A DNA stretch of 64,000 bases from Bacteroidota bacterium. GTDB lineage: Bacteria; Bacteroidota; Bacteroidia; Cytophagales; Cyclobacteriaceae. Each line of letters starts with the position of its first letter. The first letter of the stretch is position 1. Below, piece by piece: positions 36,551-46,859 of the stretch. The stretch is from positions 1 through 64,000 of the forward strand of contig JAFEAM010000001.1 of assembly GCA_018266395.1 (NCBI GenBank), in the 5' to 3' direction. The notes beneath the pieces were generated by a model. The model was not told where the DNA came from, did no database searches, and worked only from the letters and a program-made list of their open reading frames with translations. Both the position numbers and the translations under genes were made by a program.

Positions 36551-37144
36551 TTATCTATCCGCCTTGTTCTTCGTTACCCATTCCTTTATTACGCGAGGAA
36601 AATGCTTGTACTCTAGCTCATGGACACGTTGTGCTATTTCTTCCGGCGTATCATAAGGTTCCACTTTACATCTGGCCTGAAAAAGTATCTCCCCTTCGTC
36701 GAAGTGTTCATTCACTTCGTGGATGCTGATACCCGTCTCTGTTTCGCTTGCTGCCTTTACCGCTTCATGAACTTTACTCCCATACATCCCTTTTCCACCA
36801 AATTTGGGAAGCAAGGCCGGATGTATGTTGAGGATGCGCCGGGGATAAGCAGACAGAATGGTGCCTGGTATCAGCCAGAGGAACCCTGCCAGCACAATGT
36901 GGGTAATGGCATTCTTCTGCAGCCACCCCAGTACATCTGAATTTCTGAATTGTTCTCGGTTAAAAACTTTTGCAGGAACTCCGAAACGCGCAGCCCGATC
37001 CAGCACACCGGCATTGGGGTTGTTGCTCAGGATCAAAGCGATAATCACGTTCGGGTCATCTTTGAAATACCTGAGAATAGCTTCTGCATTTGTGCCTGTT
37101 CCTGAAGCAAAAATGGCAAGCCTGGCAATTGATTGATTCTGCAT
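36551..37144 (-). CDS. purN: Phosphoribosylglycinamide formyltransferase
   Basis: Third step of de novo purine synthesis, using 10-formyl-tetrahydrofolate. SGTGTNAEAI near the N-terminus binds the substrate phosphate. The catalytic Asn-His-Asp set is visible in NIHPALLPKF (Asn and His) and HFDEGEIL (Asp). At 197 residues the length is normal. It starts seven bases after the UbiA stop on the same strand and probably shares its transcript. Confidence 0.95.
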   Translation of the reverse strand: MQNQSIARLAIFASGTGTNAEAILRYFKDDPNVIIALILSNNPNAGVLDRAARFGVPAKVFNREQFRNSDVLGWLQKNAITHIVLAGFLWLIPGTILSAYPRRILNIHPALLPKFGGKGMYGSKVHEAVKAASETETGISIHEVNEHFDEGEILFQARCKVEPYDTPEEIAQRVHELEYKHFPRVIKEWVTKNKADR

Positions 37145-37150
37145 GAGATT

Positions 37151-37984
37151 TTAAAGAAAAGCCATACTTCCAATACCTGCCAGCATGATCCATTTGCAGA
37201 ACCTGCTTAGCAACTGAAAATCCCGTTTGGTGTCAGCCCTGATCAGCCATATCACGAGAATCAGCATGGGTACAAACAGAAATCCGATAAAGAATCCCAT
37301 TGGCAGGGGTGTGATCAATTTGTGCAGCAGAACAACTGAAATAGCAAATAACAGGAGGAGTGCGTATGTAAATTGTTTGGTGGGTCTGACTCCCCAAAGA
37401 ATAGGCAAGGTCCGGCAGCCAAAAGTATCATCACCCTTCAGATCTTCAACGTCCTTGATGATCTCTCTTACCAGAGTCATGAAGAAAGCAAACAGTGCAT
37501 ATACGCAGACAAGCGCGGTCAGTGGCGGGTACAGCACGCTGACCATGAGCACTGTTGCGCCGGTAAGAAGGGCAACAACGAAATTTCCGACAAACGGGAG
37601 ACGTTTCAGTGCATTTGAGTATAGCCATAAGGCAAAAACAGCCGCCACCTGAATAACTCCGATCTTCCATGACAAATAAGTACCCAGCATAATTCCGACC
37701 GCCGACAGGATGACATGAGACATGAGGGCCAATCGCCTGCTCATTTCCTTGCCGATCACCACTCTTTCAGGCTTGTTGATGAGATCGATTTTAACATCGT
37801 AGTAGTCGTTGATGATGTACCCGGCTGCCGCTATGAGAATCGTCGACATGGAAAGCAAAAGGAGTCCCGGATCTTTGAGCGTCTCATGATGTACAATGAA
37901 CCACGCTGTACAATATTGAGTAATTCCCACTATCAGAAGGTTCCAGAATCTGGTAAGACGGAGGAAAGTAAAGAGCGCCGGCAT
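37151..37984 (-). CDS. UbiA-family prenyltransferase (geranylgeranylglycerol-phosphate type)
   Basis: Polytopic membrane enzyme of 277 residues with about eight or nine hydrophobic segments. The first Asp-rich motif is NDYYDVKIDLINKPERVV and the second is DVEDLKGD, both needed for magnesium and diphosphate binding. The sequence resembles the archaeal-type digeranylgeranylglyceryl-phosphate synthase branch often found in Bacteroidota, rather than menaquinone MenA. ATG 37984 is chosen: an in-frame upstream start adds 20 residues but precedes the promoter box. Substrates are uncertain. Confidence 0.85.
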   Translation of the reverse strand: MPALFTFLRLTRFWNLLIVGITQYCTAWFIVHHETLKDPGLLLLSMSTILIAAAGYIINDYYDVKIDLINKPERVVIGKEMSRRLALMSHVILSAVGIMLGTYLSWKIGVIQVAAVFALWLYSNALKRLPFVGNFVVALLTGATVLMVSVLYPPLTALVCVYALFAFFMTLVREIIKDVEDLKGDDTFGCRTLPILWGVRPTKQFTYALLLLFAISVVLLHKLITPLPMGFFIGFLFVPMLILVIWLIRADTKRDFQLLSRFCKWIMLAGIGSMAFL

Positions 37985-37990
37985 CCGACA

Positions 37991-37998
37991 CAAAAGTA
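37991..37998 (-). promoter_or_regulatory. -7 promoter box TACTTTTG, six bases before the UbiA start
   Basis: Exact TAnnTTTG on the minus strand in the 31-base gap after the ATP-grasp gene; six bases separate it from ATG 37984, so the transcript would be almost leaderless. It lets ubiA-purN be expressed independently of the upstream operon. Confidence 0.6.
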
Positions 37999-38015
37999 AG
38001 GAAAGAACAACCGAA

Positions 38016-39206
38016 TTACGGCTCGAAAAAACACACCGAACCACCCACCCAGGTTCTGTCCTTGTTGTATTTCACGCCGATCATTTCACCGCGACTAAGC
38101 CTCGCAAGATTTGTAATGAGTACAGGTCGCGGCTGATTATCTTCCCAGATGAACAATAACCGAATTTCAACTTTTACCAGGCCGTCAGGGGCCTGGATTG
38201 AAGGATGATAATCCACTTTGCGCTGCAACATGTAATTGTGTCTCTCCTCCTCCGGTATGGCAATAAGGTCGGCCTGCGTTACGTGGAAGATCACGCCGCT
38301 TCCAGAGAAAGAAAACAAGGGCTTCAGCACATAATTTTCAAGGTCAGACGGAAATTTGTCAAAGTCCGAAAGAAACCTGCATTCCGGTATATAATGACTT
38401 GAAATCAGAGGCATGGTGAATTTCGAAATCCTGAAAAACCAGTTGGGATGACCAGCCCATTCGACATCAATATCTTCTGTGAGATGAAAGGTCATATCCA
38501 GGTCATTCCTTTTTACCATCTCGTCGAAAATCACGCGGTTATAAATCCTCCTGACCTCGGTGCGACAGCCTGAACGGTAGTAGTAAAGCCTTCTGCCTTC
38601 ACGAATCACATCACCAATATGCACGGGTTCAATTTCCGTTATTTCGCGGGTGGCAAGAAAGTCAACTGCCGTATTCTGCTTCATGGGATCGATTTCCAGC
38701 AAAATCACATTTTCCGGATCGCAATCATGAAGTAATACTTTCCTCAGATTCTGAGCATAGGTCTGCGAAGACATTCCAAAATGGCTCTGCCAATCAGCCG
38801 GAACCTTGAAATGCTCTCTGTACTTCTGTGAAAGGACATCCTGCCATCCGTACAGTGAAGGGAATCCCTGCATTTCAATGAGTCGTGGCTCCAACCCATT
38901 TGGCGTCCTGATAACAGCAAAATCGAGTGCCAGAAATAATGTGTGGTCGGTCTCATTCGGGACATCCAGGGAGGGCGGAATAGCTGCCTGTGTCAACTTC
39001 TTGAGATCAGGCCTTACCAAAAAGTCAATTATTTCATTTGAGGCCTTTAACAATTGATCCTTGAATTCCCTCCCAACAAAAACAGGTGTTTCTGCCACCC
39101 TGAATGTTATGGGTTTGTGAAACCGGTTATCCAGGTCAGCCAGAAAATTCCTGTAGCGTGCATCGCTGAAAGATTCATTGTAAGCCTGACGAACACTGGA
39201 GATCAT
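38016..39206 (-). CDS. ATP-grasp-like protein (putative amide ligase)
   Basis: A 396-residue soluble protein with no signal peptide. An ATP-grasp-like core is suggested by YVLKPLFSFSGSGV (ATP-binding lysine and glycine loop), then YMLQRKVDYHP and KVEIRLLFIW for the metal-binding end. The N-terminal half includes LALDFAVIRTPNG and RLIEMQGFPSLYG, recalling the carboxylate-substrate lobe of glutathionylspermidine-synthetase-like ligases. It is last in a six-gene operon; its ATG overlaps the stop of the amidotransferase gene (ATGA). It probably forms an amide or peptide bond on a small molecule, but substrates are unknown. The fold call is moderate because no single textbook motif is complete. 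Confidence 0.65.
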   Translation of the reverse strand: MISSVRQAYNESFSDARYRNFLADLDNRFHKPITFRVAETPVFVGREFKDQLLKASNEIIDFLVRPDLKKLTQAAIPPSLDVPNETDHTLFLALDFAVIRTPNGLEPRLIEMQGFPSLYGWQDVLSQKYREHFKVPADWQSHFGMSSQTYAQNLRKVLLHDCDPENVILLEIDPMKQNTAVDFLATREITEIEPVHIGDVIREGRRLYYYRSGCRTEVRRIYNRVIFDEMVKRNDLDMTFHLTEDIDVEWAGHPNWFFRISKFTMPLISSHYIPECRFLSDFDKFPSDLENYVLKPLFSFSGSGVIFHVTQADLIAIPEEERHNYMLQRKVDYHPSIQAPDGLVKVEIRLLFIWEDNQPRPVLITNLARLSRGEMIGVKYNKDRTWVGGSVCFFEP

Positions 39207-40024
39207 GGCACAACTGCTTTCATCTTGTGTTTCAATGCTGAACGCAGGAATCCCGGGATTACGGTATGATAGGTCCTCCTGATCTTATCGGGCTCATTCA
39301 AATACAAAAGCATCTGCTCGTATTTCTTTGCACCATGCCTCTCAATGACACTCTTCCTTTTATCCTCGCGGATCAGGTAATTGTACATGCCCTCCGAATC
39401 AGCTTCCGGATGAAATTGCGTTCCCACAATCGATTCGTCGAAACGAATAGCCATGACCGCCCGCTCCAGCCCTACATTTGGCCGGTCCTTCTCAATACAC
39501 AGAACTTCTCCACCTCCTGACCAGATTTTTTCTTCACGGGGCTGAAGAATCTGATAGTCTCTTGAATCTACAGCGTAGAACGGGTCATCCAGACCATGAA
39601 GCAAGGGGTCCAGCCGGCCTTGCTTTGTCTTATGAACCGGCATAACACCGAAGGCTGTACTTCTTCTCTTGATTATCGTCGCATAACCATATTGGCGACA
39701 GTATATCTGAAAGGAATGGCAAATCAGAAATACATATTTGCGATCCTGCGGATGAGAGGAATTGTAACGACGGATGAGATCCATTAATTGGAAATAGCTT
39801 TTTTCCCAATCCGAACCTTCACTGGTCAGCGGACTTCCCGGACCACCTGACGAGATATACACATCGTAACCAAGGTCTGCAATTTCTTTCCGTGAGCGGA
39901 CATCGAAAATGTCATATGTCAGACCTGGATCGTAATCCGACCTGAACTCTTCCAGTAACTGGCGAATGCAGCGCATCCCCTCGTTAGCTTCACCCTCATA
40001 CAAATCCAGCACCGCAATCTTCAT
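39203..40024 (-). CDS. Class-I glutamine amidotransferase-like protein
   Basis: A 273-residue protein with the class-I amidotransferase fold. The oxyanion region is SSGGPGSP (58-65). The nucleophile elbow FLICHSFQ gives Cys102, and GTQFHPEA provides His205 and Glu207, so the triad is complete. The elbow differs from the usual G-x-C-x-G-x-Q, so it may be a peptidase or a specialised glutaminase rather than a standard ammonia donor. A C-terminal tail of about 60 residues follows the domain. It lies between a GCS2-type ligase (10-base gap) and an ATP-grasp-like gene (4-base overlap); it could supply ammonia to a ligase or trim a product. Confidence 0.8.
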   Translation of the reverse strand: MKIAVLDLYEGEANEGMRCIRQLLEEFRSDYDPGLTYDIFDVRSRKEIADLGYDVYISSGGPGSPLTSEGSDWEKSYFQLMDLIRRYNSSHPQDRKYVFLICHSFQIYCRQYGYATIIKRRSTAFGVMPVHKTKQGRLDPLLHGLDDPFYAVDSRDYQILQPREEKIWSGGGEVLCIEKDRPNVGLERAVMAIRFDESIVGTQFHPEADSEGMYNYLIREDKRKSVIERHGAKKYEQMLLYLNEPDKIRRTYHTVIPGFLRSALKHKMKAVVP

Positions 40025-40034
40025 TTCAAGGGGG

Positions 40035-41132
40035 TTAGAGTCCTACAAGGGTCTGTTCAGTAATATAATCCACAACTTTTTGCAGGCTGTGTGTCTTTTC
40101 AAAAATCTGCAATTGCCTGTCAGCGCCTGTGCCCTGTTCCAGAATCCGCTTTATATTATTGATGTGTGCCCGGCTCCCGAGGTCATCGACAACGTCATCG
40201 ACAAAATCAAGCAATTCATGAATGAGGTGTCTGGTGTCAACTTCCTCCTGTTTTCCAAAATCTATCAGCCTTCCGTCGATGCCATACCTGGAAGCCCGCC
40301 ACTTATTCTCACTTATGAGTGCACGGTTATAAACGATGAAACTCATGTTTTTCATGCGAAGGCGGTACAGCTTGGCAACTATGGCCTGAAACAAGGCGGT
40401 TATCGCGATTGTTTCTTCCACAAGCATAGGCACATCACAAATTCTGAATTCAATGGTATCATAAAATGGATGGACGCGAACATCCCACCAGATCTTTTTT
40501 GCGTTGTCAATGCATCGTGTCCTGATAAGAAGATTGACATAGTTTTTGAAGTCATCCCAGTCATTGAAATAATCCGGCAGGCCGGTCCGGGGAAACTTAT
40601 CAAACACTTTTGTCCGAAAAGATTTGAATCCTGTATTTCTTCCTTCCCAGAAGGGCGAGTTGGTGGACAGGGCGTAGACGTGAGGCAGAAAATAGCGCAC
40701 TGTATTCATGATGTGGATTGCCATATTCTTGTCAGCAATTCCCACATGAACATGAAGTCCAAAGATCAGGTTGGAACGTGCAGCCTCCTGCATTTCGTTC
40801 ACGATCTCGTCGTACCTGGGATTCGGCGTTATCAGCTGGGTGCTCCAGTGCGAAAAAGGATGGGTTCCGGCCGCCCCGATTTTCAGGCCGATTTCCCCGG
40901 CCACCTCAGCTACTGTTCTTCGAAGCGCCCGGATTTCGCTGTGAGCCTGGTCCACGTTTGTGCAGATGCCTGTACCAACCTCCACTACCGCCTGATGCAT
41001 CTCTGCCTTCACCGCATCGTGCAGTTTTTTGGAGGCCAGCTCGACAATCTTCTGATCGTGTGATTTGAGTTCCCGTGTGGCGGGATCAACCACCATATAC
41101 TCCTCTTCTACACCAAGCGTAAACTTTTCCAT
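40035..41132 (-). CDS. Carboxylate-amine ligase, YbdK/GCS2 family
   Basis: A 365-residue enzyme of the glutamate-cysteine-ligase-2 superfamily. The N-terminal metal/ATP motif GVEEEYMVVDPATREL, the VEVGTGIC stretch and IGAAGTHPFSHW are clear family marks. YbdK proteins join a carboxylate to an amine with ATP; E. coli YbdK has only weak glutamate-cysteine ligase activity and the physiological role is open. It sits third of four ligase or amidotransferase genes in the operon, 22 bases after the RimK-like gene. Confidence 0.9.
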   Translation of the reverse strand: MEKFTLGVEEEYMVVDPATRELKSHDQKIVELASKKLHDAVKAEMHQAVVEVGTGICTNVDQAHSEIRALRRTVAEVAGEIGLKIGAAGTHPFSHWSTQLITPNPRYDEIVNEMQEAARSNLIFGLHVHVGIADKNMAIHIMNTVRYFLPHVYALSTNSPFWEGRNTGFKSFRTKVFDKFPRTGLPDYFNDWDDFKNYVNLLIRTRCIDNAKKIWWDVRVHPFYDTIEFRICDVPMLVEETIAITALFQAIVAKLYRLRMKNMSFIVYNRALISENKWRASRYGIDGRLIDFGKQEEVDTRHLIHELLDFVDDVVDDLGSRAHINNIKRILEQGTGADRQLQIFEKTHSLQKVVDYITEQTLVGL

Positions 41133-41154
41133 ATGCCGGATAATAAAGTGGGCG

Positions 41155-42162
41155 CTACTTCTTAGGACCCTTTGCCTTCGGCTTGCTTTCCTTCAAGTCC
41201 TCACCGGATGACTTCAGAAATGCCGCCACGCCGCCGGAGACAAATGTCCCCCAGGTCAGATTGTCCTTTCCATCTTCCTGTGATTTCGCGCGCTCAACTG
41301 CCATTATTGCTGCATGCTCCACCACCCAGTCAAAATTCTCCTGGCCAACAGAAGCCACGTCGGCATCCGGAGCCGGGTTGCAGAAATCAATGGCATAGGG
41401 AACTCCGTTGCGTACAGCCATTTCAACGGTATTAAAATCGTAGCCCAGGGACTGGTTCAGTTTAAGGACATAGTCATGAATCTTCTTCAGCAGCTTGTCT
41501 GATGCTGGCCCCTTCTCCACGACATAGCGCAAGTGATGCGGGTTCCGCGGTTCATACTGCATGATGCGGATGTACTTTCTACCAAGGCAATAGCATCTGA
41601 AATATTCCTCGAAAATGATCTCCTCCTGGAGCATCATAACCAGTTGACCAGTTTGCCGGTATGCTTCAAAAAAATCATCCGGGCCGTTCAGTTTGTATAC
41701 GCTTTTCCAGCCTCCACCCGCGTGAGGTTTCATATATGCAGGCCATCCTATGTGTGCAAATATTTGATCCCAACTCAAGGGGAACTTCAGGTTGCTGAAA
41801 GAAGAATCCTGGGTATCCACGGGTTTTTCGTGAGATGGGAGGATGACGGTTTTTGGCACGGGAACACCAATCTTAACGGCCAACGCATTGTTAAAGAACT
41901 TCTCATCTGCGCTCCACCAGAATGGATTATTGATTACGGCAGTTCCGGCACTGGCCGCATTCTTGAGATAGGCACGATAGAATGGCACATCCTGTGAAAT
42001 CCGGTCGACGATAACGGCATACCCTGACGGCGCCCCTTGTTCTACCATATCAACCATTACTGGTTCTGCTGAGATGTCTTTCAACCCCATTTTATTGATT
42101 CGTTCAACAAAGGCCTGGGGGAAGGAACGCTCCATGCCGTGTAGGATTCCGATTTTCTTCAT
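41155..42162 (-). CDS. ATP-grasp ligase (RimK/D-Ala-D-Ala ligase-like)
   Basis: A 335-residue ATP-grasp protein. The ATP-binding lysine is Lys145 in YMKPHAGGGWKSV, and a glycine-rich loop follows. The metal site is formed by Glu247, Asp259 and Asn262 in VEMAVRNGVPYAIDFCNP. The N-terminal lobe (1-130) is a pre-ATP-grasp Rossmann-like domain. The C-terminus ends in a Lys-rich, disordered-looking tail. Such enzymes add amino acids or similar groups to a carboxylate. It is the first ligase of the operon, 15 bases after an exported hydrolase. Substrate unknown. Confidence 0.8.
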   Translation of the reverse strand: MKKIGILHGMERSFPQAFVERINKMGLKDISAEPVMVDMVEQGAPSGYAVIVDRISQDVPFYRAYLKNAASAGTAVINNPFWWSADEKFFNNALAVKIGVPVPKTVILPSHEKPVDTQDSSFSNLKFPLSWDQIFAHIGWPAYMKPHAGGGWKSVYKLNGPDDFFEAYRQTGQLVMMLQEEIIFEEYFRCYCLGRKYIRIMQYEPRNPHHLRYVVEKGPASDKLLKKIHDYVLKLNQSLGYDFNTVEMAVRNGVPYAIDFCNPAPDADVASVGQENFDWVVEHAAIMAVERAKSQEDGKDNLTWGTFVSGGVAAFLKSSGEDLKESKPKAKGPKK

Positions 42163-42177
42163 GACTGAAGGTTTAGG

Positions 42178-43101
42178 TTATTGGTTCAGTAAGGCTATAA
42201 TGGATTGCTGGAATTTGCCAGACTCTGTAAGGTTAAGACTATGGCCTGAATTTGTAAACCAAATGAGGTCCTTTTTTTGTGCCCGGAGCGCCTTGAAATA
42301 GCGTGCCGTAACGGCTGGATTGGTGCTCAGGTCCTTTTTGCCCACAAAAAAATAAACGGGACAGTGGATTTCAGGCAATTCCTTTTCAAGATTAACGGCA
42401 GATCCCTCCAGGAATAGGGGAAGCCAATGTTCTGACCATTTAATCACGAAGTCCCTGGTAAATGACCTTCCGCCAGATAGTACGTACGCCCACTTTCGGT
42501 GGTAATACAATTGATCAGCATTTTCAAACGGGATCCTGACTTTGCCCAGCTCCTGCAGCGCCTGATTGTTGTGAGATCTTTTTGAGATTGTTACCATCGT
42601 ATCAAGGGACAAACGCTCACTTTCCAACTGGTTAACCATGGGAGAGGCGGCCACGCAAGCCTGGAGCCGATCCGGATTTAAGCCAGCCAGCCGCAGAGCG
42701 ATGAATCCACCCCATGAATGACCAACAACAAAAATCCTGTCTCTTTTAAACCGGGTGCATAAATAGTTCATCAGTTCAAGGGCATCGTTTTCCGCCTGTT
42801 TCAGGGTTAGTTTCTCTGATGAGTGATTCATCTCCCATGTCTTTCCGCAATCCCTTTGTTCCCATAGTACCACCGTGAAGTGCTTTTGCAACAGATTGGT
42901 AAATCGATTGGCATAACGCATGCTGGAATTGCCTGGTCCTCCGTGGAGATATAGCAGGATTGGATTCGCACGCTCAGTTGCCCGGATGCTGATCCATTGT
43001 TTGATTCCTCCAATACTGACAGCATATGACGTATCTATGCGACCAGCGTTGGACACCAGGGCGGCCATTAACATCAGGCACAATGATATCCAGCGATGCA
43101 T
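42178..43101 (-). CDS. Exported alpha/beta hydrolase, proline iminopeptidase-like
   Basis: A 307-residue hydrolase with an N-terminal signal peptide (hydrophobic residues about 4-18). The oxyanion motif HGGPG (53-57) is that of prolyl aminopeptidases and related enzymes; the nucleophile is Ser129 in VGHSWGG. The acid appears near VGKKDLST and the His in NSGHSLNL. An exported aminopeptidase or amidase next to amide-bond ligases could process or recycle the product. It follows the first esterase by ten bases. Confidence 0.8.
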   Translation of the reverse strand: MHRWISLCLMLMAALVSNAGRIDTSYAVSIGGIKQWISIRATERANPILLYLHGGPGNSSMRYANRFTNLLQKHFTVVLWEQRDCGKTWEMNHSSEKLTLKQAENDALELMNYLCTRFKRDRIFVVGHSWGGFIALRLAGLNPDRLQACVAASPMVNQLESERLSLDTMVTISKRSHNNQALQELGKVRIPFENADQLYYHRKWAYVLSGGRSFTRDFVIKWSEHWLPLFLEGSAVNLEKELPEIHCPVYFFVGKKDLSTNPAVTARYFKALRAQKKDLIWFTNSGHSLNLTESGKFQQSIIALLNQ

Positions 43102-43111
43102 GGAGTTTCAA

Positions 43112-43819
43112 TTATCTGATCAGCGACAAATAATGCGGGAACATTTCCTTCCAGGCAGGCCAATCATGCGGCGCGTTCTGCCTCACATCCAACCAATGAT
43201 GAATGCCTTTGTTTCTGAGGATTGATGCCATCTTTTCGTTAGCATCCCAGCACATGTCGTGGGTGCCGGTGCCGAGCACCACAAACATGTCGTTGAAAAA
43301 TGGACTTTGGGCGTTGGGAAGGAAGTCAGGCGGATTATTGAAATAGACGTTGTCGTCGTAATAGCCATCAAGCTGTGGCTTAATATCAAAGGCAGCACCC
43401 ATATTGAACACGTACTTGACAAATTCCGGGTGTCTGAATGCAAAGTTGGTGGCATGGTATCCGCCAAAACTACAGCCCGCTGTCGCAATGCGATGCACCC
43501 CAGTTTCTCTTTGCATGAGTGGAAGCAGTTCGGTCAGCAGAAATTGATCATACCACATATGATTCACAACACGCTGGGCAGGATGAATCCCCTGATTATA
43601 CCAGCTGAGTGAGTCGATGCCGTCAGGACAATAGATCTTTACCAGCCCCTCGTCAACAAACCAGGCCACTGAGTCTATCAGTTTGAAGTCCTTATTCTCA
43701 TAAAAACGCCCCATGGAGGTGGGAAACAACATGATGGGATATCCCCGGGTCCCGAAAGCCAGTGTTTCCATATCACGGTTCAGGCTGGGCGAATACCAAC
43801 GATGATAGTGTTCGTGCAT
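43112..43819 (-). CDS. Cytoplasmic esterase, alpha/beta hydrolase fold
   Basis: A 235-residue hydrolase without a signal peptide. The nucleophile is Ser117 in AGCSFGG; the His appears in QNAPHDWPAW near the end and the acid upstream near GTHDMCW. It resembles the small esterase group COG4947 (called from memory). It is the first gene of the - strand operon and is divergent from another esterase gene with only 56 bases between the starts. Confidence 0.75.
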   Translation of the reverse strand: MHEHYHRWYSPSLNRDMETLAFGTRGYPIMLFPTSMGRFYENKDFKLIDSVAWFVDEGLVKIYCPDGIDSLSWYNQGIHPAQRVVNHMWYDQFLLTELLPLMQRETGVHRIATAGCSFGGYHATNFAFRHPEFVKYVFNMGAAFDIKPQLDGYYDDNVYFNNPPDFLPNAQSPFFNDMFVVLGTGTHDMCWDANEKMASILRNKGIHHWLDVRQNAPHDWPAWKEMFPHYLSLIR

Positions 43820-43858
43820 AAGAGAGTAGCTGTTTCAGTAAGTTAAGTCCGGTTATTC

Positions 43859-43866
43859 TATTTTTG
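43859..43866 (+). promoter_or_regulatory. -7 promoter box TATTTTTG
   Basis: Exact TAnnTTTG match, nine bases before ATG 43876. It shows that an in-frame TTG at 43864 is too early to be the start. Confidence 0.6.
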
Positions 43867-43875
43867 CAAACATTT

Positions 43876-44724
43876 ATGGCTGCTCCCGAGACAGAAGAAG
43901 AAATTGCTAAAGAGGAACCCTCCTATCAATATCGCACAGAACGGTTGAGTAATATCTACTCAAAATTGCTCGAAAGAAATGTTGAGGTGGAGATACTGAT
44001 CCCGCCTGTTCTGACTGAAGGACGAAAATATCCACTTCTCATATTGAATGACGGGCAGGATTCTGAAGCGGTCAAGGTCAAATCCACCATTGAGGAGCTG
44101 GTTTCCTCGGGGGAGATTTCAGAGGTCATTGTCGCCAGCGTTACAGCTGGTGATCGCATGCAGGAATATGGTGTTGCCTTTCGAACCGACTACTTTGGAA
44201 GAGGCAAGATGTCCAAAGCCTATTCTTCCTATATCGTCACTGAACTGTTCCCCTACCTCACTTACCGTTTCCCAATCCACGGAGACCCTCAGCATCATGT
44301 GATGGCCGGATACTCATTGGGTGGACTTTCTGCAATGGACATTGTGTGGAATCATCCGGAGATTTTCGGGATGGTTGGTGTATTCAGTGGATCCTTCTGG
44401 TGGAGAAAAAGAGATTCAGGCAGTTTCTTCTACTCTGATTACCGCGATCGCCTCATGCATCTGCAGGTGCGCAGAGGCAAATTCAAACCTGGAATGAAAT
44501 TCTGGTTCCAGACAGGCACAAGGGATGAATCCGGTGACCGCAACAAGAATGGAGTGATCGATTCTATAGATGACACACTTGATCTGATCGCAGAACTCAC
44601 CCGAAAAGGTTACCGGCCATTCCGCGATATTCAATACATTGAAATCCAGGATGGGCTGCACAACCAGGAAACCTGGGCGAAGGCGATGCCTGAGTTCTTG
44701 AGATGGGCATTCGGAAAATCTTGA
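43876..44724 (+). CDS. Esterase, enterochelin-esterase/esterase D-like
   Basis: A 282-residue alpha/beta hydrolase without a signal peptide. The nucleophile is Ser147 in MAGYSLGG; the catalytic His is likely in DGLHNQETW near the end. Residues 221-232 read D-x-N-x-N-G-x-I-D-x-x-D, an EF-hand-like calcium loop I also associate with related Bacteroidota esterases. Related families hydrolyse siderophore or peptide esters. It is divergent from the amidoligase operon and is followed after 14 bases by a HAD phosphatase, so its link to the operon rests on the shared promoter region. Confidence 0.8.
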   Translation: MAAPETEEEIAKEEPSYQYRTERLSNIYSKLLERNVEVEILIPPVLTEGRKYPLLILNDGQDSEAVKVKSTIEELVSSGEISEVIVASVTAGDRMQEYGVAFRTDYFGRGKMSKAYSSYIVTELFPYLTYRFPIHGDPQHHVMAGYSLGGLSAMDIVWNHPEIFGMVGVFSGSFWWRKRDSGSFFYSDYRDRLMHLQVRRGKFKPGMKFWFQTGTRDESGDRNKNGVIDSIDDTLDLIAELTRKGYRPFRDIQYIEIQDGLHNQETWAKAMPEFLRWAFGKS

Positions 44725-45395: not shown

Positions 45396-46859
45396 CTACA
45401 ATCCTTTCTGGATGGTGTCAATCACTTCCTGTGCACAGCGTTCGGCAGATGCCAGTGCACCATTAACACTTCCGCCCTCACCGGATACATCAGTAGCTTC
45501 ACCAGCAAAAAATAGAACATTGTTGACAGGTGTGGAGAGAGACTTGCGATCACTGTTCTTGGTACCCGGCATCGGATAGGAATAGCCGCCAAGGATATAA
45601 TCCATCTTTGTCCAATCCTGAATGAGATAGATTCTTTCTAGCGTAGTAATATCCAGGCGTATAAACTGTGTGGCCAGACCTTGATTATTAGCATCTTTAT
45701 ATAGAACATCCAAATCCGATAGAATGGCGTCAACGGCACCGTCTCCCATGGCAGACAGCTGTGCCGCCCTTGGACCACAGACCGTTACTGTCAGAGTGGT
45801 GTTGAACTGGCTCCTGCCCATCCCATAACTGAAATATTCCGGAATACCATTTGAGCCGAAGATCAGACCGGTAGTATCGCCCCAGAAGTTCTTCTTGAAC
45901 TCCAGAATTACACGAATGCAGGCGTCAAAGCCAAACTTTGCCATTGCACCTGTATTTACGGCAGGTAGGGATGGCGTGAATGTAATGAGGTTGTTCTTCA
46001 GTACACTCAGCGGAACCGTAACTATAACTTTATCAGCAGTGTAAGTCGTGCCATCCTTGGCGGTGAGGCTGATGGGTTTTGCTCCATAATTTATCGAGGT
46101 GATCGGGGTCTTCAATTGGACGAACTGCTGGATGTTACTGAATCTGGATATCAGGGCATCCTGCATGGGGTTCGACTTAAGGCTCAGGAATTTTCCATCG
46201 TGGGTCTTAAGCGTTTCATTCTCGCCCAGTGCACCGATTCCCATTCTCTCACTGCTACTGCCGTAAGGGTTGGCAGTAGTTGCATTCACGATATTGGCCG
46301 CACGTGCCGATACGCCCGCGCTCTGTGAAGCCTGCAAAACGGACAGTGCGCTGCCTGCATAACTTTTCAGATTGGCCCTGAAGTTTGACGCAGCCACATA
46401 ATCGGGATCAGAGCCCCAAGCAGTCCCAAGCTGTGCCGTATTATCCATCACATAAGCGAAGGATGAGCTGGGAAATTCGATTGTTGGCAATTGGTAGTCT
46501 GTAAAAATCTTTCCAAAGATGGAGTCTGATCCATGTATAGTCTGCGCACCAAGCTCCAATGGAAAATCGGAGCTCAGTTTGGGTATAATGGGGTAGGCGT
46601 CTGTACCCTGATTGCGTACTGATCTTACTCTTCCTCCAATTTGCTCCCGCGCTTCAAAAAGACTGACCTTGATACCTTTGGTGTGCAGTATATCCGCTAC
46701 ATACAGGCCTGCTGCTCCTGCTCCAATTACTGCAATCGTTCCATCAAAATTGATTTCCGGTGCCGGTTCCTTGGTGGCGCAGGAGTCCAGAAACGGTGGC
46801 AGCAATAAACCACCGCCAAGTCCCATTCCAATTCTGCGAATAGCCTGCCTGCGCTTCAT
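45396..46859 (-). CDS. Exported flavin monoamine oxidase-like protein
   Basis: A 487-residue FAD-dependent amine oxidase. The FAD motif GAGAAGLYVADIL (about 46-58) and EAREQIGGRVRS are followed by a C-terminal FAD-binding end with LFFAGEATDVSGEGGSVNGA. The N-terminus has twin arginines (KRRQAIRRIGMG), a hydrophobic stretch and a lipobox-like FLDSC, so it may be a Tat-exported lipoprotein. Members oxidise amines, polyamines or amino acids. It is a single-gene unit, convergent with the HAD gene. Substrate unknown. Confidence 0.85.
   Translation of the reverse strand: MKRRQAIRRIGMGLGGGLLLPPFLDSCATKEPAPEINFDGTIAVIGAGAAGLYVADILHTKGIKVSLFEAREQIGGRVRSVRNQGTDAYPIIPKLSSDFPLELGAQTIHGSDSIFGKIFTDYQLPTIEFPSSSFAYVMDNTAQLGTAWGSDPDYVAASNFRANLKSYAGSALSVLQASQSAGVSARAANIVNATTANPYGSSSERMGIGALGENETLKTHDGKFLSLKSNPMQDALISRFSNIQQFVQLKTPITSINYGAKPISLTAKDGTTYTADKVIVTVPLSVLKNNLITFTPSLPAVNTGAMAKFGFDACIRVILEFKKNFWGDTTGLIFGSNGIPEYFSYGMGRSQFNTTLTVTVCGPRAAQLSAMGDGAVDAILSDLDVLYKDANNQGLATQFIRLDITTLERIYLIQDWTKMDYILGGYSYPMPGTKNSDRKSLSTPVNNVLFFAGEATDVSGEGGSVNGALASAERCAQEVIDTIQKGL

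Follow-up and report, generated by a model that had tools for sequence, protein, structure and literature searches.

The window analysed here comprises the first 64,000 bases of contig JAFEAM010000001.1 from a Bacteroidota bacterium (assembly GCA_018266395.1; genome of 4.4 Mb in 56 contigs). Between positions 38016 and 44724, the window carries an operon that encodes three amide-bond-making enzymes together with matching hydrolases, and that very likely builds a small peptide-like molecule. The three enzymes are a RimK-like ATP-grasp ligase, a GCS2/YbdK-type carboxylate-amine ligase (GCS2), and a divergent second ATP-grasp ligase (ATPg2), and they are accompanied by a protein of the class-I glutamine-amidotransferase fold (GAT) and two esterases (EstA and EstB). 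Our preferred reading, to which we assign a probability of about 0.45, is that Bacteroidota use the operon to make and recycle a small peptide-amine conjugate in the cytosol, and that this pathway is passed on mainly by vertical descent.

Co-occurrence and inheritance of the operon

We searched 296 genomes sampled from the phylum, using E-value limits of 1e-5 for ATPg2 and 1e-40 for the RimK-like ligase and GCS2; the assignment to Bacteroidota follows from the taxa named in the titles of the relatives. ATPg2 was detected in 92 genomes, the RimK-like ligase in 108, and GCS2 in 103. Among the ATPg2 genomes, 89/92 also encoded the RimK-like ligase, 87/92 encoded GCS2, and 84/92 encoded both. This coupling persisted in genomes where the genes stand apart and is therefore not just an inherited neighbourhood. 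The first-pass annotation had proposed one pathway with several amide-bond-forming families, to be judged by co-occurrence of the genes in other genomes and by the presence of an ATP-grasp fold in the protein encoded from position 38016. The proposal is supported by the co-occurrence, and structure prediction recovered the fold (see below). That the genes form one pathway is, in our view, highly probable.

The RimK alignment, run against named genomes, gave at least 584 confirmed relatives, of which the best 80 loci were kept, some ending at a contig edge (loci and genomes are cited below by L and G numbers, respectively). Seventy-eight of these loci had Bacteroidota titles (Pedobacter, Mucilaginibacter, Dyadobacter, Runella, Spirosoma, Chitinophagaceae, Cryomorphaceae, and others) and two were titled uncultured bacterium. 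GCS2 was found in 74 of the best 80 loci, EstB in 68, EstA in 56, GAT in 54, and ATPg2 in 51. In the same loci, an exported HGGPG hydrolase was found in six, HAD in five, and UbiA in none, and on these counts all three were rejected as members of the set. The HGGPG hydrolase is a lineage-specific, local insertion. An earlier suggestion that the product leaves the cell, or is recycled outside it, is not supported, as this exported hydrolase occurs in only 6/80 loci and a check by eye revealed no obvious signal peptide in the other six window proteins.

Of 120 scanned loci, 101 had two or more core genes together, and the order EstA-RimK-GCS2-GAT-ATPg2 was uninterrupted in 39 of these 101. One family, placed with Chitinophagaceae on the tree, has a split set, with EstB-RimK-GCS2 in L187 to L191 and GAT-ATPg2 in L041 and L225. 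The simple gene caller overlooked or mis-started genes (e.g., 26 EstA genes called vs. 56 found by search), including RimK of L214 and L216.

The RimK tree (78 of 136 rows, with every fourth of the 80 named loci) largely follows families when judged by eye, and the named rows nearest to the window are metagenome-assembled genomes of Flammeovirgaceae and Cyclobacteriaceae. ATPg2 had no match in the plasmid and phage collections, none of 27 pattern matches in viral contigs was an ATPg2 relative, and the RimK-like protein had no match in the plasmid collection; a mobile-element or phage origin was rejected on these missing matches. Coverage outside Bacteroidota consisted of plasmids, phages, viral contigs and, for GCS2 only, 14 control genomes, four of which gave matches to the GCS2 family, none above the cut-off. 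Our results indicated that the operon is chromosomal, mostly vertically inherited, and present in roughly one in three of the genomes sampled from the phylum.

The ligases and a ligase replacement

By sequence, ATPg2 had no Pfam, NCBIfam, or PDB match and was only weakly linked to YgiC, which a profile search reached at E 0.011; on this basis ATPg2 was rejected as a sequence-level member of a named family. Structure predictions, which drew on the window proteins and the best 80 loci, placed the fold of ATPg2 nearest to YgiC, YjfC, glutathione synthetases, and Gss, and the glutathionylspermidine synthetase (PF03738) fold was matched over its whole length. ATPg2 thus shares its fold with E. coli YgiC/YjfC (PF03738), at 14% identity and with a score below the Pfam cut-off. 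Unlike them, it is embedded among RimK-like, GCS2, and GAT genes. RefSeq labels YgiC a peptide-spermidine ligase, and the peptide-spermidine work on YgiC/YjfC is that of Pederick 2023, as cited in excerpts of PMC12568646 and PMC10948618. ATPg2 is probably a peptide-carboxylate:amine ligase, and a protein family without a Pfam entry is placed here into a known ligase fold. In family f28, ATPg2 lies 18 bases downstream of a sodium:solute symporter (PF00474) in L049:9984-11369 and is in one reading frame with a sodium:solute symporter in L054:7637-10240. The adjoining symporter is a hint of a transported substrate.

The RimK-like protein scored below the TIGR00768 cut-off (143.4 bits), and its model has the RimK/LysX/ArgX ATP-grasp fold with RimK nearest. 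Its metal motif D259-F-C-N262 was invariant in 45/45 aligned sequences and stands in place of the E-x-N of RimK, LysX, and ArgX. The C-terminal tails of the window protein (41155-42162) and its relatives vary widely in length, and many are Lys/Ala-rich. GCS2 is a full member of the YbdK/GCS2 carboxylate-amine ligases by the curated PRK13515 cut-off and is 29% identical to E. coli YbdK. It is usual but not obligatory: 13 of the 104 genomes that pair RimK with ATPg2 or with the ligase described next lack it.

Nineteen of the 296 genomes encoded the RimK-like ligase without ATPg2. Fifteen of them carried a circularly permuted ATP-grasp protein (PF14403) of ~470 residues at E <=5e-203, and in the remaining four the RimK match itself was weak (E 1e-43 to 1e-83). 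The PF14403 protein, GAT, and the metallopeptidase discussed below were sought in 80 chosen genomes of the 296; in the PF14403 genome set, G007, G087, and G287 replace G023, G105, and G168. By coordinates, the PF14403 gene adjoins RimK in 15/15 genomes and GAT in 14/15, with GAT on a separate contig in G290. None of the 15 encoded ATPg2, and one ATPg2 genome, G137, had a weaker PF14403 match (2.5e-110). Because the PF14403 ligase was found where ATPg2 is missing, the core consists of the RimK-like ligase plus a second ATP-grasp ligase, either ATPg2 or PF14403. The gene caller overlooked the PF14403 gene of L216 and also that of G135, whose tree row (L170) is marked as GAT.

GAT and its replacement by a metallopeptidase

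The nucleophile elbow of class-I glutamine amidotransferases is G-x-C-x-G-x-Q. GAT matched PF00117 (37.6 bits) and its Cys102/His205/Glu207 triad was invariant in 19/19 aligned sequences, whereas its elbow reads I-C-[HY]-S-[FY]-Q with Ser104 in all 19. The nearest solved structures were weak matches, namely an uncharacterised protein and homoserine O-succinyltransferase. A complete triad and an unusual elbow had both been described for this protein and were confirmed; the amidotransferase function assigned along with them is doubtful, considering how often GAT is absent or replaced.

A GAT orthologue was present in 42 of the 80 genomes tested. Of 64 ATPg2 genomes among those searched, 27 had GAT, six had a strong orthologue of an M29 metallopeptidase, and 31 had neither. 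GAT and ATPg2 form a two-gene unit in some genomes, and with no GAT orthologue in 37/64, ATPg2 cannot depend on GAT. The strong M29 orthologue (E <1e-158) was found in 6/80 genomes and GAT in none of these six (Fisher p 0.009; Fisher and hypergeometric values for co-occurrence were computed with kinship among genomes ignored). In five genomes from four families (G055, G251, G255, G271, and G093), M29 lies between GCS2 and ATPg2, so that this metallopeptidase can occupy the slot otherwise taken by GAT. The GCS2 gene of G251 is interrupted by a contig end, and the M29 gene of G208 is located elsewhere. To account for the four M29 rows of the RimK tree, its well-supported branches require three or more changes (gains or losses). 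Since a metallopeptidase can fill the slot and over half of the ATPg2 genomes tested are without GAT, GAT is more likely an amide hydrolase than an ammonia donor.

Peptidases also adjoin the genes in single loci, with M42 before GAT in L041 and S10 beside GCS2 in L173 (the same protein cluster occurs in L176 and L186). In a genome without a RimK match at 1e-40, the gene for a C26-type gamma-glutamyl hydrolase (L184:9364-10077) follows a distant GCS2 after a gap of 18 bases.

Proposed pathway and alternative explanations

In the pathway that we propose, GCS2 would make a gamma-glutamyl amide, which the RimK-like ligase would extend, unless it joins a second acid and amine. ATPg2 would then close the molecule by amidating its terminal carboxylate with an amine. 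GAT, or M29 in its place, may act as a separate amidase that reverses one of the ligase-made bonds, like the amidase half of E. coli Gss, and the substrate of EstA and EstB may be an ester, thioester, or amide form. We propose a peptide-amine conjugate because a YgiC-like ligase with a separate hydrolase recalls Gss, and because of the name that RefSeq gives YgiC. In Gss the synthetase is fused to a CHAP amidase, whereas here the hydrolase is separate (class-I GAT fold or M29), and no CHAP domain was found in the scanned window proteins. That the amine joined by ATPg2 is a polyamine is a tentative suggestion. More tentative still is the possibility that the product is a so far undescribed, widely kept gamma-glutamyl-type peptide with an amine or polyamine cap, i.e., a Bacteroidota counterpart of glutathionylspermidine or trypanothione that exists beside bacillithiol, is made by a route assembled independently (GCS2, RimK-like, and YgiC-like ligases), and is recycled by interchangeable hydrolases.

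Several observations weigh against the peptide-amine reading. PF03738 gave no match to the window ATPg2 (12.1 bits for its relative L059 vs. a cut-off of 29.3), and hhalign of ATPg2 against Gss reached only E 0.29. The Mg-ligand motif of this ligase fold is E-x-N; ATPg2 has E111-x-Q113 in 48/48 relatives and differs in this from YgiC/YjfC. The PF14403 genomes form essentially one clade on the RimK tree (100/99) and therefore represent one replacement, not fifteen independent events. As hhalign of ATPg2 against the PF14403 ligase gave a probability of only 10%, homology of the two ligases is not supported at the sequence level. GAT retains two motifs, GGPG and QFHPE, that are found in true amidotransferases, nearly half of the tested ATPg2 genomes (31/64) have neither GAT nor a strong M29, and an additional 13 genomes have weaker M29 relatives, in 12 cases together with GAT. 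In addition, nspC, a marker of the carboxynorspermidine route, which was the polyamine route covered by the search, was found in only 12/296 genomes; a tie of the amine to this route was therefore rejected.

It is possible, although we consider it unlikely, that GAT is a glutaminase supplying ATPg2 or the PF14403 ligase with ammonia, in which case a primary amide would result, as with carbamoyl-phosphate synthetase or in a molecule resembling glutathione amide. This would be consistent with the intact Cys-His-Glu triad, the GGPG strand and Gln106, with the 4-base overlap of the GAT and ATPg2 genes, with the position of GAT beside the PF14403 ligase in 14/15 genomes of the swapped clade, and with the GAT-ATPg2 unit that stands away from RimK-GCS2 in L041 and L225. 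It fits poorly with the ATPg2 genomes that have no GAT orthologue, the five in which a metallopeptidase occupies the slot, the Ser in place of the elbow Gly in 19/19 sequences, and the weakness of the nearest structures.

A glutathione-like low-molecular-weight thiol, with GCS2 making gamma-glutamylcysteine and the ATP-grasp ligases finishing it, is suggested by the relationship of GCS2 to gamma-glutamylcysteine ligases and by the glutathione synthetase fold in the ATPg2 model. We regard this as improbable: GCS2 is missing in the 13 genomes mentioned above, and BshC, the bacillithiol enzyme family, was present in 291/296 genomes; therefore, the cluster does not stand in for the thiol normally used. 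Equally improbable is a peptide tag placed on a protein, as RimK does on ribosomal protein S6, and removed by the hydrolases. The RimK-like model is nearest to RimK, a protein-modifying ligase in the excerpted text of PMC8939145, and pairs of ligase and hydrolase suit tagging and untagging, but no recurring partner protein or small carrier was seen in the cluster among called open reading frames (ORFs) of at least 70 aa, and the gaps of 10 to 22 bases in the window leave no space for a carrier gene. We give still less credence to a natural-product cluster (e.g., graspetide or dapdiamide/E-64-like), since the operon is present across about a third of the sampled phylum, its RimK tree largely follows families, ATPg2 and RimK are unmatched in plasmids, with ATPg2 also unmatched in the phage and viral collections, and no precursor or exporter recurs among ORFs of at least 70 aa. 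Specifically for a graspetide precursor, no small ORF of 70 aa, the shortest length called, or more recurred beside the ATP-grasp genes, and the same narrow gaps apply in the window.

Relation to known systems and significance

Amidoligase neighbourhoods were reportedly surveyed computationally by Iyer, Aravind and colleagues in 2009, and they are said to group, as here, several ligases that form amide bonds non-ribosomally and differ in fold. We class the operon with such neighbourhoods; what it adds to them is the ATPg2 family, the coupling of the genes across the phylum, and the two slot swaps. Text searches of the literature, including excerpts of PMC12568646, PMC10948618, PMC11036162, and PMC8939145 and not covering Iyer et al. 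2009, returned no paper describing the operon. An operon kept across much of a major phylum, for which we found no assigned product, would be a missing piece of bacterial core metabolism and not a curiosity. The swaps in ligase type and between amidotransferase fold and metallopeptidase give testable predictions on the bond made and the bond cut, and Pedobacter, Mucilaginibacter, Dyadobacter, and Runella are tractable hosts for metabolomics.

Gene layout, esterases, and neighbouring genes

All seven ORFs lie where they had previously been placed. Re-measurement of the six-gene minus-strand run reproduced its gaps of 10, 15, 22, and 10 bases and its single overlap, between GAT and ATPg2. The divergent gap between EstB and EstA is 44 bases when counted from the listed TTG start, and ~56 from the next ATG.

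Table 1 Genes of the operon in the window, with the evidence for each assignment
Gene product	Position	Strand	Evidence
EstB, divergent serine esterase of the PF00756 family	43864..44724	+	PF00756 101.8 bits; no evident signal peptide
EstA, small PF00756 esterase, first gene of the minus-strand operon	43112..43819	-	PF00756 match
Exported HGGPG alpha/beta hydrolase, proline-iminopeptidase-like	42178..43101	-	TIGR01250 60.5 bits (cut-off 167.65)
RimK-like ATP-grasp ligase, core member	41155..42162	-	RimK-type fold; TIGR00768 28.3 bits
GCS2/YbdK-type carboxylate-amine ligase (PRK13515)	40035..41132	-	546.8 bits (cut-off 371)
GAT, class-I glutamine-amidotransferase-fold protein, predicted amide hydrolase	39203..40024	-	PF00117; Cys102/His205/Glu207
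ATPg2, divergent glutathionylspermidine-synthetase/YgiC-type ATP-grasp ligase, core member	38016..39206	-	Fold of the model

Ser151, Asp221, Glu222, and His266 of EstB, and Ser117 and His218 of EstA, were invariant in 20/20 aligned sequences each. The EstB relative in L103 looks exported, and the EstB ORF of L036:13963-15525 (520 residues) has an extra C-terminal domain that is DinB-like by eye. EstA relatives were also found in 14 plasmid records, of which four regions were fetched. An ATP-grasp gene directly precedes EstA in the Peptoclostridium (L192) and Pararhizobium (L195) plasmids, the two being 38% identical, while no ATP-grasp was seen in the EstA regions of Thiodictyon (by annotation) and Rhizobium lusitanum (by tblastn of the region). 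With a partner in only 2/4 fetched regions, constant pairing of EstA with an ATP-grasp protein was rejected. Likewise, the Peptoclostridium partner was not supported as a relative of RimK or ATPg2 and is a distant ATP-grasp_4. A fourth ATP-grasp ligase (~400 aa; PF13535 in the scanned L167) flanks the cluster in seven loci (L047, L060, L126, L167, L209, L210, and L222) and directly precedes EstA in L060; the plasmid partners of EstA are distantly related to it (23 to 25% identity).

Two further regions adjoin the cluster in the window. The gene at 45396-46859 encodes a flavin amine oxidoreductase (PF01593) whose start resembles that of a lipoprotein or Tat substrate; used as a query, this protein was found in none of the best 80 of at least 584 loci. 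Downstream of ATPg2, at 36551-38005, lie genes for a UbiA prenyltransferase and a formyltransferase-like protein (PurN-like by eye) with gaps of 10 and 6 bases, and these two genes may be co-transcribed with the operon in the window.

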